A DNA stretch of 35,676 nucleotides from Bacteroidota bacterium (lineage in GTDB: Bacteria > Bacteroidota > Bacteroidia > AKYH767-A > 2013-40CM-41-45). Below the pieces are notes generated by a model that searched no databases, had not been told where the DNA came from, and was given only the letters and a program-made list of their open reading frames with translations. The stretch spans positions 1-35,676 of the forward strand of contig JAPLDA010000080.1 in assembly GCA_026391945.1 (NCBI GenBank). Reading direction: 5' to 3'. This document shows, piece after piece, positions 7,611-35,676 of this stretch; position 1 is the first letter of the stretch, and each line of letters starts with the position of its first letter. The translations under genes and the position numbers were made by a program.

Positions 7611-7634
7611 ATACTTAACAAAAAAAATCTGCTG

Positions 7635-7753
7635 CTCCATTCCTTCTTCCTTCTCCTTATTCCTTATTACTTATTACTTATTCTTTATTCTTTATTCTTT
7701 ATTCATTCTTCCTTATTCAATACTCCTTATTCTCCATTCCATATTCCTTCTTC
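7635..7753. repeat. Heptamer tandem tract, 17 units
   Basis: The + strand can be cut into 17 consecutive 7-base units without a break in phase. Most are variants of CTTATTC (CTTATTA, TTTATTC, CTTCTTC, CCTTCTT, TCCATTC). On the minus strand, the direction of transcription here, the consensus is GAATAAG. The tract fills most of the spacer between the DUF2520 stop at 7767 and the UbiA start at 7562. Copies are degenerate, so this is an old or selected tract and not a fresh microsatellite. Confidence 0.85.
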
Positions 7754-7766
7754 CAATAACGTCATT

Positions 7767-8540
7767 CTAAAACCTCACTCCATGCATCTCTTCAATACTT
7801 TCACTCATCAGTCTGTAAATTTCCCTGAATTGTTTTTTCGAGGAAAGCAGTTTCAGGTGTTCCTCCATTACGGTAGCATCGCCTCTTTTGGCCGGACCTG
7901 TCTGAATATCGCGCGGTGAATTCTTCCGTGCTTTTAAAGCCGTTTCATGCATCAGGGGATGAAGCATTTCCAATGAAATATTTTCCTTTGCCAGAATCGA
8001 TTCAGCAACAGAAAATAAATGATTGGTAAAATTATTTGCAAACACAGCAGCGAGGTGAATCCATTTTCTTTTTTCAGACGACAGGTAATGAACTTCTCCT
8101 GAAACCGATTTTGACAAGGAAGTTATTTTCGATTTGGCATGTTGATTATTCGCCTCGAGACAAAGCGGAACATTCCGGAATGAAACGGAATGTTTCTTTG
8201 AAAAAGTCTGAACCGGGTAGATGACACCAAAGTTCCTGAATTTTTTTTCGAACACATTGATCGGAACAGAGCCCGACGTATGGACGATGATTTTCCCTGT
8301 GATACCGAATGCAGCAAGGAACGGTTCAATGGCTTCATCGCGGAGAGCCACCACGTAAACATCGGCAGTGCCGGTGATCTCCGTGACATTCGTGGTAGGC
8401 GATGCAGAAAGTTTCTTTGCAAGCGTAGCGGCTGATGAATCGCTGCGGCTGTAAACCTGGAGAATGCTGTGCCCGGCGCGTTTCATCGCCTTCCCGAAAT
8501 GGGTGGCTACATTACCGGCTCCAATCAGTACGATTTTCAT
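7767..8540 (-). CDS. Rossmann-like / DUF2520 domain protein
   Basis: This 257-residue cytoplasmic protein has an N-terminal dinucleotide-binding fold: MKIVLIGAGNVATHFG contains the G-x-G-x-x-A turn, followed by Y-S-R-S at the end of strand 2, which would favour NADP(H) over NAD(H). Residues about 125-257 match the helical DUF2520 domain (HLAAVFANNFTNHL, HPLMHETALKA, TGPAKRGD). The overall plan is that of the F420/NADP-dependent and 6-phosphogluconate-like reductases, but the substrate is unknown. It lies 30 bases downstream of ccmF on the same strand. In many Bacteroidota it precedes a KdsC-type HAD phosphatase, a UbiA gene and maf. Here the HAD gene is absent. Confidence 0.85.
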   Translation of the reverse strand: MKIVLIGAGNVATHFGKAMKRAGHSILQVYSRSDSSAATLAKKLSASPTTNVTEITGTADVYVVALRDEAIEPFLAAFGITGKIIVHTSGSVPINVFEKKFRNFGVIYPVQTFSKKHSVSFRNVPLCLEANNQHAKSKITSLSKSVSGEVHYLSSEKRKWIHLAAVFANNFTNHLFSVAESILAKENISLEMLHPLMHETALKARKNSPRDIQTGPAKRGDATVMEEHLKLLSSKKQFREIYRLMSESIEEMHGVRF

Positions 8541-27501: not shown

Positions 27502-28413
27502 TTAAATCACCGGCACCATTTCAACATTCAGTTTTTCCAAATCACCGGCGCCAATCTTAACCTGTTTGCAGGTCTGTGTTACAAATCCCGCCACCTCAAT
27601 GGTAATGTCGTAGGTATCCGGCGAAATTTTCTTCTCATCGGCAACTCCGGCAGCATCCGTTGTAATCACCAAAGTTCCTTTACCCGAAACAGCCGTAATA
27701 GTAGCCCCCGCAATGGGTAAATGCGTATTCTTGTTCAGAATGGTAGCACGCAGTTCCGTGTAATTTGTTTTACCGTCAACTATTTTTCTGTTGTTAAAAT
27801 AATTCGAGTAAAACGCAGGCGCAGTCTCCTCGAACAAACCCATCAGTTTATCCAATTTTTTCTTTAGAATTTCCTGGTTGGCTTTTACCAGTTTTTTAAT
27901 ATCCTGCGTGGCAGTGGCAATCGTACTTCTTACATCACGCGGCATGGCAATCAGCACATCAAATTTTTTAATCGCCGTAGTCAGGCCGTCAATCATGGCC
28001 TGTGTCAGTCCGTAATTCGCCATCGATGCTAAGTTAGCAGAAGCAGCATCGCAAATTTTCTGGCAGCGGGCTTCTGCCAGCGTAGCTCGCGAATTCACGA
28101 TGTCGGTTACGCTAAAGTTCACGTTTTCATAAAGAGCGCTGTCGTTTTTGTCAGTGGCAAATGCCTGCAACGTACCTTTAACAATCATGGCAAGATCGGC
28201 CATGGTCAACTTTCTGTTCGTCTTGTCCTGTGAGTAACCTGTGGTAGCCGCCTGTTGATTTTGCAAGGCAACTTCAATGTTTGCATTGTTCGCCTTAAAC
28301 TGGTCGTAGGCATCACTGTAAACTTGTTGGTTCTGCCACACAAGAATACTGTTATCGCATTCAAGCTGCACGGCAAGGAACATGTTGTAAATACTGTTTT
28401 CTTTTTTGGTCAT
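27502..28413 (-). CDS. Protein with C-terminal carboxypeptidase-regulatory-like domain
   Basis: The 303-residue protein has no signal peptide. Residues about 1-210 are helical, rich in Gln, Asn, Ala and Lys, with coiled-coil-like stretches (IKKLVKANQEILKKKLDKLM). Residues about 218-303 fit a carboxypeptidase-regulatory-like (Ig-type) domain: LRATILNKNTHLPIAGATI, then TTDAAGVADE, Y-D-I-T-I-E-V-A-G-F and KLNVEMVPV. Such domains are common in Bacteroidota surface proteins, but a cytoplasmic or signal-independent version is less usual. I have a general memory of similar uncharacterised Bacteroidota proteins but cannot name the family. It stands alone, with its own terminator, and diverges from the repeat array and bshB1. 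Confidence 0.75.
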   Translation of the reverse strand: MTKKENSIYNMFLAVQLECDNSILVWQNQQVYSDAYDQFKANNANIEVALQNQQAATTGYSQDKTNRKLTMADLAMIVKGTLQAFATDKNDSALYENVNFSVTDIVNSRATLAEARCQKICDAASANLASMANYGLTQAMIDGLTTAIKKFDVLIAMPRDVRSTIATATQDIKKLVKANQEILKKKLDKLMGLFEETAPAFYSNYFNNRKIVDGKTNYTELRATILNKNTHLPIAGATITAVSGKGTLVITTDAAGVADEKKISPDTYDITIEVAGFVTQTCKQVKIGAGDLEKLNVEMVPVI

Positions 28414-28511
28414 GATTTTTTATTTTTTTTGGTTTAAATAGTTGCACACTTATACCTTCATCGTTTTCGCTCGTTGTAAAACAATTTCATTATTTCTTAC
28501 AAAAAATTCAC

Positions 28512-28538
28512 TTGTGCGAAATCGAAGCATATACTTTG
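28512..28538 (+). promoter_or_regulatory. Possible promoter reading into the 21-bp array and bshB1
   Basis: TTG (28512-28514) is followed after 17 bases by TACTTTG (28532-28538), which is one spacer base short of TAnnTTTG. If used, the transcript would carry the whole repeat array as its leader before the bshB1 ATG at 29056. Confidence 0.25.
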
Positions 28539-28566
28539 CGAATCCGCAGAATCGTTCTCTAACAGC

Positions 28567-28582
28567 CACTATATATATAGTG
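28567..28582. promoter_or_regulatory. 16-bp perfect palindrome
   Basis: CACTATATATATAGTG is its own reverse complement. It sits 34 bases before the first unit of the 21-bp array in the divergent region between the gene at 27502-28413 and bshB1. It could be a regulator site or only an AT-rich palindrome. Confidence 0.35.
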
Positions 28583-28615
28583 TATGTCCAATATCATTTT
28601 CATTCACCCAACAGT

Positions 28616-28993
28616 CAGACATCTACTTTGTCAGTCCAGCTATCTACTTTGTCAGTTCAACTATCTACTTTGTCAGGTCACTGTGTTCCGACGGAGCTCC
28701 ACTGTGTTCCGATCAACAGCCAGCCATCTGCTTTGTCAGTTCAGACATACACTTTGTCAGGTCATTTTCGATCTATCGAGTGTCAGCGTGTTCCGACGAA
28801 CCTCCACTGTGTTCCGACCAACAGTCAGACATCTACTTTGTCAGTTCAGACATACACTTTGTCAGGTCATTTTCGATCTATCAAGTGTCAGCGTGCTCCG
28901 ACAGAACTCCACTGTGTTCCGGCCAACAGCCAGTCATCTGCTTCACCAGGTCAATCACAATCTTTCATTTGCCAGCACGTTCCGAAAATTTCC
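28616..28993. repeat. Array of 18 contiguous 21-bp units with a 105-bp higher-order period
   Basis: The + strand divides without a gap into 18 units of exactly 21 bases, each beginning CA. Four unit classes recur: CATCTACTTTGTCAG-type, CATTTTCGATCTATC-type, CAGCGTGTTCCGAC-type and CACTGTGTTCCGAC-type. They recur in sets of five, giving a 105-base period (CAACAG anchors at 28609, 28714, 28819 and 28924). The sets at 28721-28825 and 28826-28930 differ at 9 of 105 positions. The first and last sets are more diverged. No TAA, TAG or TGA occurs anywhere on the + strand of the array. There are no unique spacers, so it is not a CRISPR array. Confidence 0.92.
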
Positions 28994-29055
28994 AATACAT
29001 CCCCGATTAGATTCCATTGCGTAAATTTACCCTGCTATTTAAAAATTCTAACTTT

Positions 29056-29772
29056 ATGAAACTCGACATCCTTGTTTTTGGCGCTCATCCCGATGATGCA
29101 GAACTTTCCTGCGGCGGAACCATTCTGAAACACGTGAGCCTTGGTAAAAAAGTCGGGCTGATCGACCTCACCGCCGGAGAACTCGGAACACGCGGCGATG
29201 CCGAAACAAGATCGAAAGAAGCTGCTGATGCAGCCAAAATCCTCGGCGTGGTCACAAGAGAGAATCTTCTTTTCGCCGACGGATTTTTTCAGAACGACAA
29301 AGAACACCAGTGGAAGGTTGCCGCATCCATCAGGAAATACAAACCCGAAATTATTTTATGCAACGCCGTTACCGACCGCCATCCCGATCATCCAAAGGCA
29401 GCAAAACTGGTGTCGGATGCTGCTTTCCTTGCCGGCTTGTTAAAAGTGGAAACCACAGATGTCGGCAATAAACAGGAACCATGGAAAACCAAAGCCGTGT
29501 ATCATTACATCCAGGATCGCTACATCAAACCTGATTTTGTCATCGACATTACAGAATTCATGGAGAAAAAAATGGAAGCGATCAAAGCGTACCGTTCGCA
29601 ATTTTATAACCCCGATTCTTCTGAACCTGAAACGGCCATATCATCAAAAGATTTCCTGGAATTTCTTCATGCGCGCTCGCGCGAATTTGGCCGACAGGTT
29701 CATGCCACCTACGCCGAAGGATTTACCACCGAACGATACCCCGGAGTCCATTCTTTATTTAACCTGGTATAG
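29056..29772 (+). CDS. bshB1: Bacillithiol biosynthesis deacetylase BshB1
   Basis: The 238-residue cytoplasmic enzyme belongs to the LmbE/PIG-L zinc deacetylases. It opens MKLDILVFGAHPDDAELSCG with the A-H11-P-D-D14-x-E motif and carries D107-R-H109-P-D-H112; the histidines and aspartates bind zinc and act in catalysis. The LTAGELGTRG and LLFADGFF segments are typical of BshB1, which removes the acetyl group from GlcNAc-malate to give GlcN-malate, the second step of bacillithiol synthesis. I start at the ATG at 29056; a TTG at 29017 would add an unlikely 13 residues. bshA and bshC are not in the window. The gene is monocistronic, with a strong terminator 20 bases after its stop, and the 21-bp array lies 62 bases upstream. 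Confidence 0.9.
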   Translation: MKLDILVFGAHPDDAELSCGGTILKHVSLGKKVGLIDLTAGELGTRGDAETRSKEAADAAKILGVVTRENLLFADGFFQNDKEHQWKVAASIRKYKPEIILCNAVTDRHPDHPKAAKLVSDAAFLAGLLKVETTDVGNKQEPWKTKAVYHYIQDRYIKPDFVIDITEFMEKKMEAIKAYRSQFYNPDSSEPETAISSKDFLEFLHARSREFGRQVHATYAEGFTTERYPGVHSLFNLV

Positions 29773-35505: not shown

Positions 35506-35537
35506 CATCCCGTTTCCGAAAACACCCGGAAATCAAA

Positions 35538-35676
35538 TGGTGGTTGTAGCTCAGTTGGTTTGACCCCTCCGATTGAAATCGGAGGGGTCGTGAGAAAGTA
35601 AAATATTAAATGGTGGTGGTAGCTCAGTTGGTTTGAGCACTCCGATTGAAATCGGAGGGGTCGTGAGAAAGTAAAA
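35538..35676 (+). repeat. Tandem 73-bp tRNA-like units (two visible, second cut by window edge)
   Basis: Unit 1 starts at 35538 and unit 2 at 35611; they differ at 3 of 66 comparable bases. Each begins like a tRNA 5' half: a GGTGGTTG or GGTGGTGG acceptor-like start, TA, D-arm GCTCAGTTGGTTTGAGC (in unit 2), then an anticodon-arm-like hairpin with TTGAAA at its tip. After GTGAG, where a T-arm with TTCRA should follow, both units switch to AAAGTAAAA. No T-arm or 3' acceptor strand is present, so neither unit is a complete tRNA. In unit 1 the D-stem is broken (GCTC against GACC) because the hairpin has become perfect. They may be tRNA-derived fragments or an assembly artefact at a contig end. Confidence 0.7.

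Follow-up and report, generated by a model that had tools for sequence, protein, structure and literature searches.

Plasmid iterons are direct repeats about 20 bp long whose spacing follows the turns of the helix; they are near-identical to one another and lie beside a replication initiator gene. REP/BIME elements are short palindromic repeats found between genes, which belong to one sequence family and may bind nucleoid proteins. Satellites between bacterial genes tend to be rare and to have assorted periods. In the portions of a prokaryotic satellite survey on which we draw, a satellite is defined as at least four tandem units of 10–200 nt, some of the arrays are intergenic, about 40% are unrelated in sequence to any other array, and arrays reach at most 89 per Mb (Subirana and Messeguer 2019; PMC6749651).

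The array described here lies at positions 28616–28993 (plus strand) of a stretch of 35,676 nucleotides, called the window below, which is one entire contig (G000:C81) of a 3.1-Mb Bacteroidota genome in 114 contigs. None of the relatives searched belongs to the genus of the source. The array consists of 18 units of 21 bp without indels, in the order A A A D E / A B C D E / A B C D E / A C D, and it stands where the earlier note had placed it, between a minus-strand gene and plus-strand bshB1. The former (27502–28413) encodes a 303-aa protein with a C-terminal carboxypeptidase-regulatory-like domain (CarboxypepD_reg, PF13620), of which relatives hold only distant homologues, and the latter (29056–29772) encodes the bacillithiol biosynthesis deacetylase of the PIG-L/BshB1 type, an identity backed by TIGR04001 (E 2.7e-90).

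The array resembles iterons in being made of direct repeats of about 20 bp in helical phase, but instead of a replication initiator its neighbours are bshB1 and the regulatory-like-domain protein, and, unlike iterons, the arrays of relatives are many per genome and unrelated to one another. As short intergenic repeats, with dyads in relatives, the arrays also recall REP/BIME elements; however, their sequences differ from array to array, and a dyad is lacking in the window array. CRISPR loci likewise consist of regularly spaced intergenic repeats, but there constant repeats alternate with unique spacers, whereas here the units directly adjoin one another, with no spacers, and come back in sets. 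With 18 regular units of 21 bp the array is a prokaryotic satellite in the sense of the survey, in whose portions used here no 21-bp-quantised class is named (PMC6749651). Our literature search turned up no account of 21-bp arrays in Bacteroidota, nor any paper on whether a lineage measures DNA in two-turn steps. The remark in the earlier note that it knew of no described element with this structure is roughly right for a 21-bp-quantised class, but intergenic prokaryotic satellites are known (PMC6749651).

Units, blocks and register of the array

All consecutive 21-mers from 28616 to 28993 fall in exact phase, as claimed from the sequence originally (18 units of exactly 21 bp, no indel), and every length change within the array is one of whole 21-bp units. 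The lag-21 autocorrelation, proposed at the same time as a check, gave an identity of 0.499 against 0.257 ± 0.025 for dinucleotide shuffles (z 9.6). At lag 105 the identity was 0.751 (z 18.1 against dinucleotide shuffles, about 0.26), and Tandem Repeats Finder reports a period of 105 with a score of 447. The higher-order structure is supported. Of the sets of five, ABCDE is complete twice, the first set being AAADE and the last being cut to A, C and D. Block 1 (AAADE, 28616–28720) is identical to block 2 (ABCDE, 28721–28825) at 78 of 105 positions (27 differences), while block 3 (ABCDE, 28826–28930) is identical to block 2 at 96 of 105 (9 differences). Block 4 (28931–28993), shortened to three units (A/B-like, C, D), is the most diverged. 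All four blocks lie on the plus strand, with the two interior blocks most alike and the most diverged units at the 3' edge.

A distance matrix divides the units into three families, A/B with eight units, D/E with seven and C with three. Similarity between the families is at chance level, approximately that of random sequence; the units are not a single repeat with gradual variation. As read from this anatomy, the array would have grown from 21-bp units, single ones being duplicated first (A-A-A, A-B, D-E) and a five-unit set afterwards, each change in copy number being a whole 21-bp step.

Unit copy number or order could also be wrong in this draft genome. Contigs of array-rich relatives often end inside arrays, indicating that short-read assembly struggles with such sequence; the window array, however, is internal to a 35.7-kb contig, many bases set its adjacent units apart, and its family orders would be hard to obtain from a collapsed or duplicated k-mer path. 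We regard an assembly artefact as highly improbable.

Every one of the 18 units starts with CA, and three columns, C1, A2 and C11, are invariant in 18 of 18 units, with no other column invariant. The spacing from C1/A2 to C11 is approximately one helical turn. When the families were slid against one another, a single register combination out of 441 reached three shared invariant columns, and this was the true register; column permutation gave a P of 1.35e-4 for the shared columns. P values for this CA...C skeleton range from about 1e-4 to 2e-3, in tests that are post hoc, concern one array and are mutually non-independent, and CA may be a single feature in the count. Homology of the families would mean that their other positions are saturated, which makes the three columns that survive look constrained; without homology, the common register must have another cause.

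It had been argued that a period of two helical turns makes every unit present the same face of the helix. This idea gains some support from the invariant columns about one turn apart and from a 10.5-bp harmonic in the conservation profile of the window array (0.41, p 0.002). In the arrays of relatives the 10.5-bp conservation harmonic is not enriched (p 0.35). Phased A/T bending across the wider group of arrays described below was rejected, as those arrays have no A/T harmonic at 10.5 bp. With the spacing conserved, and in this array also a CA...C skeleton about one turn apart, double-stranded DNA is the most likely level at which the constraint is exerted.

Coding, RNA and promoter signals in the spacer

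All three plus-strand frames are open over 28584–29011, the minus strand has no open frame, and none of 2000 column permutations kept the three plus frames open. Two open reading frames, 28442–29059 and 28584–29024, are present. These observations speak for a repeat-encoded peptide, which is among the roles listed in the earlier note, or for a plus-strand leader ORF made of heptad repeats. However, pN/pS is near or above 1 in every frame (1.06, 0.84 and 1.83), with no clear purifying selection in any of them, and Pfam gave no match above cut-off for an array-encoded peptide. An open frame is lacking altogether in 19 of 46 arrays of the class defined below, and a single coding frame does not predict three overlapping open ones. 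The peptide reading is not supported, and we consider it very improbable. The openness of all three plus frames over 28584–29011 is an observation in its own right, not accounted for by selection on any single frame.

The array sits in the spacer upstream of both flanking genes, and dyads occur in many of the relatives' arrays, as would fit a structured leader RNA or a riboregulator that acts on bshB1 or on the divergent gene. Against this, the fold of the array was not significant relative to shuffled sequence on either strand (z -0.64 and -0.44), and no Rfam family scored above its gathering score in the array. The window array contains no dyad, with a dyad z of -1.5 to -1.8, below the null, and an MFE z of +0.2/-0.7. 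Mismatches in the dyads of relatives are about equally often G-T (95) and A-C (80), which favours a role as DNA over a role as RNA of one strand. The Bacteroidota -7 element TAnnTTTG is absent from either strand of the spacer, a promoter scan gave two sigma-70-like sites versus 1.7 expected, and no recognised promoter was found for the array. None of 29 relatives has an array upstream of bshB1. The regulatory leader suggested earlier has no support in these results, and we judge an RNA role very unlikely.

A perfect 16-bp palindrome, CACTATATATATAGTG (28567–28582), had been placed at the array's edge. The palindrome is real, but it ends short of the array, 33 bp ahead of the first unit; it is among three perfect palindromes of at least 16 bp in the window.

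To the extent that sequence can show it, this array is an intergenic, non-coding minisatellite whose units keep an exact phase of two helical turns, and any constraint on it would act neither through RNA structure nor through a peptide.

Arrays in 21-bp steps among relatives

The window array is single-copy in its own genome and absent from 60 relatives; relatives show neither synteny of the spacer nor a conserved array position. It has no match in phages or plasmids, a 25-bp exact pattern gave none in viral contigs, and a mobile origin was rejected on the absence of such matches. It is the only array of period 21, 42 or 63 in the 911 kb sampled of the 3.1-Mb source genome, where other arrays have assorted periods (12, 14, 15, 24, 52, 61 bp and others). 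The same genome holds arrays of a 7-bp unit, one of them ATTCCTT-like at 7627–7768 of the window and further ones elsewhere (L049, L201, L205, L230). At the very end of the contig, 35535–35676, is a 73-bp tandem repeat of 1.9 copies with 95% matches, which carries a tRNA-like GGTAGCTCAGTTGGTT motif; ARAGORN reports no tRNA at this site.

The bshB1 loci of relatives carry further 21- and 42-bp arrays with unrelated unit sequences. In G006 (L052:4568-4714), a 21-bp array whose dyad is AAGGG...CCCTT follows bshB1 on its 3' side, a position not orthologous to that of the window array. Within the order, no fewer than four genomes have non-coding arrays at approximately 50–250 per Mb, with periods almost only of 21, 42, 63, 84 and 105 bp. 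Arrays of period 21, 42 or 63 number 18 in 72 kb in G014 (about 249 per Mb), 11 in 60 kb in G021 (about 183 per Mb), 2 in 28 kb in G017 and 11 in 213 kb in G006, these densities being rough and biased upward because several samples start at contig ends, often inside arrays. Across these four genomes, the period is a multiple of 21 in 52 of the 73 arrays with a period of at least 17 bp; the remainder mostly look like long coding repeats of 100–240 bp, as judged by eye from the sequence. At the thresholds of the density scan, no array in the sampled genomes had a fundamental period of 19, 20, 22 or 23, and 958 kb sampled from named Bacteroidota yielded no array of the 21-bp kind.

We defined in this analysis a class of 21-bp-quantised intergenic arrays, whose period is a multiple of 21 bp with the register kept, which are intergenic and non-coding, which frequently though not universally have a dyad in the unit, and which are many per genome. 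Most of its members lie between genes, and they occupy co-directional, divergent and convergent spacers at about background proportions. They are largely unrelated in sequence: three related pairs were found among 53 arrays, two of these being neighbours on one contig. Several 42-bp arrays have unrelated halves (lag-21 identity 0.14–0.27, lag-42 identity 0.64–0.70), meaning that the 21-bp step is kept without sequence repetition. Dyads are frequent in the units, with a mean MFE z of about -2.5 versus column-permuted arrays (38 arrays) and a class mean dyad z of 1.8. Orthologous spacers of the array-rich genus carried arrays with different units in 4 of 6 within-genus comparisons; this recurrence is only suggestive and not significant, as roughly one in three long spacers carries an array anyway.

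The densities in G014 and G021 (about 249 and 183 per Mb) compare with a maximum of 89 in the survey, with the qualification that detection methods differ and that our samples are biased upward (PMC6749651). Set beside the portions of the survey used here, the array-rich relatives appear exceptional in both density and their single quantised period, again subject to the difference in detection methods (PMC6749651). The window's own genome, unlike G014 and G021, is sparse in arrays.

The window array has the period (21 and 105 bp), the kept register and the intergenic, non-coding position of the class, but it has no dyad in its unit, and it stands alone in 911 kb of 3.1 Mb. Judged by period, register and relationship, it most likely belongs to the order's class, as a sparse member in its own genome. 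At the same time, its lack of a dyad and its isolation in the sampled third of the genome mean that a coincidental 21-bp period has substantial probability. The window array is a modest, and possibly a coincidental, pointer to the class, for which the arrays of relatives are the stronger evidence.

Were the period coincidental, this would be an ordinary minisatellite, 21 bp long by chance, produced by slippage and unequal recombination, functionless and unlinked to the arrays of relatives. Its single copy, its absence from the 60 relatives, a spacer without synteny and the minisatellites of various periods in the same genome all agree with such an origin, and the most diverged units at the 3' edge with the most similar blocks in the interior are the expectation for a decaying satellite. 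Two points speak against it: families in which change has otherwise reached saturation keep the CA N8 C skeleton in register, and relatives from the same family and order abound in arrays quantised at exactly 21 bp. We hold an ordinary minisatellite to be a distinctly possible reading.

The account that we prefer, and to which we give an even chance of being right as a whole, is of a minisatellite that changes in whole 21-bp steps, is likely a member of the class and is under constraint as double-stranded DNA. On this account, two-turn phasing might conceivably set the units on the same face for a coating, bending or recombination factor; no binding protein or factor acting as a 21-bp ruler was identified. 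More speculatively, this Bacteroidota lineage could possess a cellular process that measures DNA with a 21-bp, two-turn ruler and seeds, copies or maintains arrays between genes whatever their sequence, of which the window array would be a product phased by its in-register CA...C skeleton, an extension that we put forward tentatively and consider rather unlikely. If it is true that nearly all non-coding arrays of a lineage are built in 21-bp steps whatever their sequence, this would point to a protein or a copying process that measures two helical turns, and whether two turns are measured in this lineage is a question that can be tested directly.

Several of the relatives' arrays can be pointed to individually. 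Dense intergenic arrays of exactly 21 or 42 bp with unrelated units are seen in G014 (L053, L061, L062, L063), G021 (L171-L173) and G017 (L260), and arrays of the same kind in G006 (L052, L065, L066, L234, L235, L238-L240); examples of dyads in the arrays of these four genomes are TTTGGAGGTCTCCAA and TCCCTCGCAAGGGA. In a 42-bp array at L253:903-1121, only the arms TTGTATA...TATACAAC recur, while the loops and the remainder of the unit differ but keep a constant length, much as in a repeated operator. A 42-bp array in G044, which belongs to another order of the taxonomic class, has a near-perfect 20-bp palindrome, CATTCGCACATGTGCGAATG, in each unit (L189:307-599).
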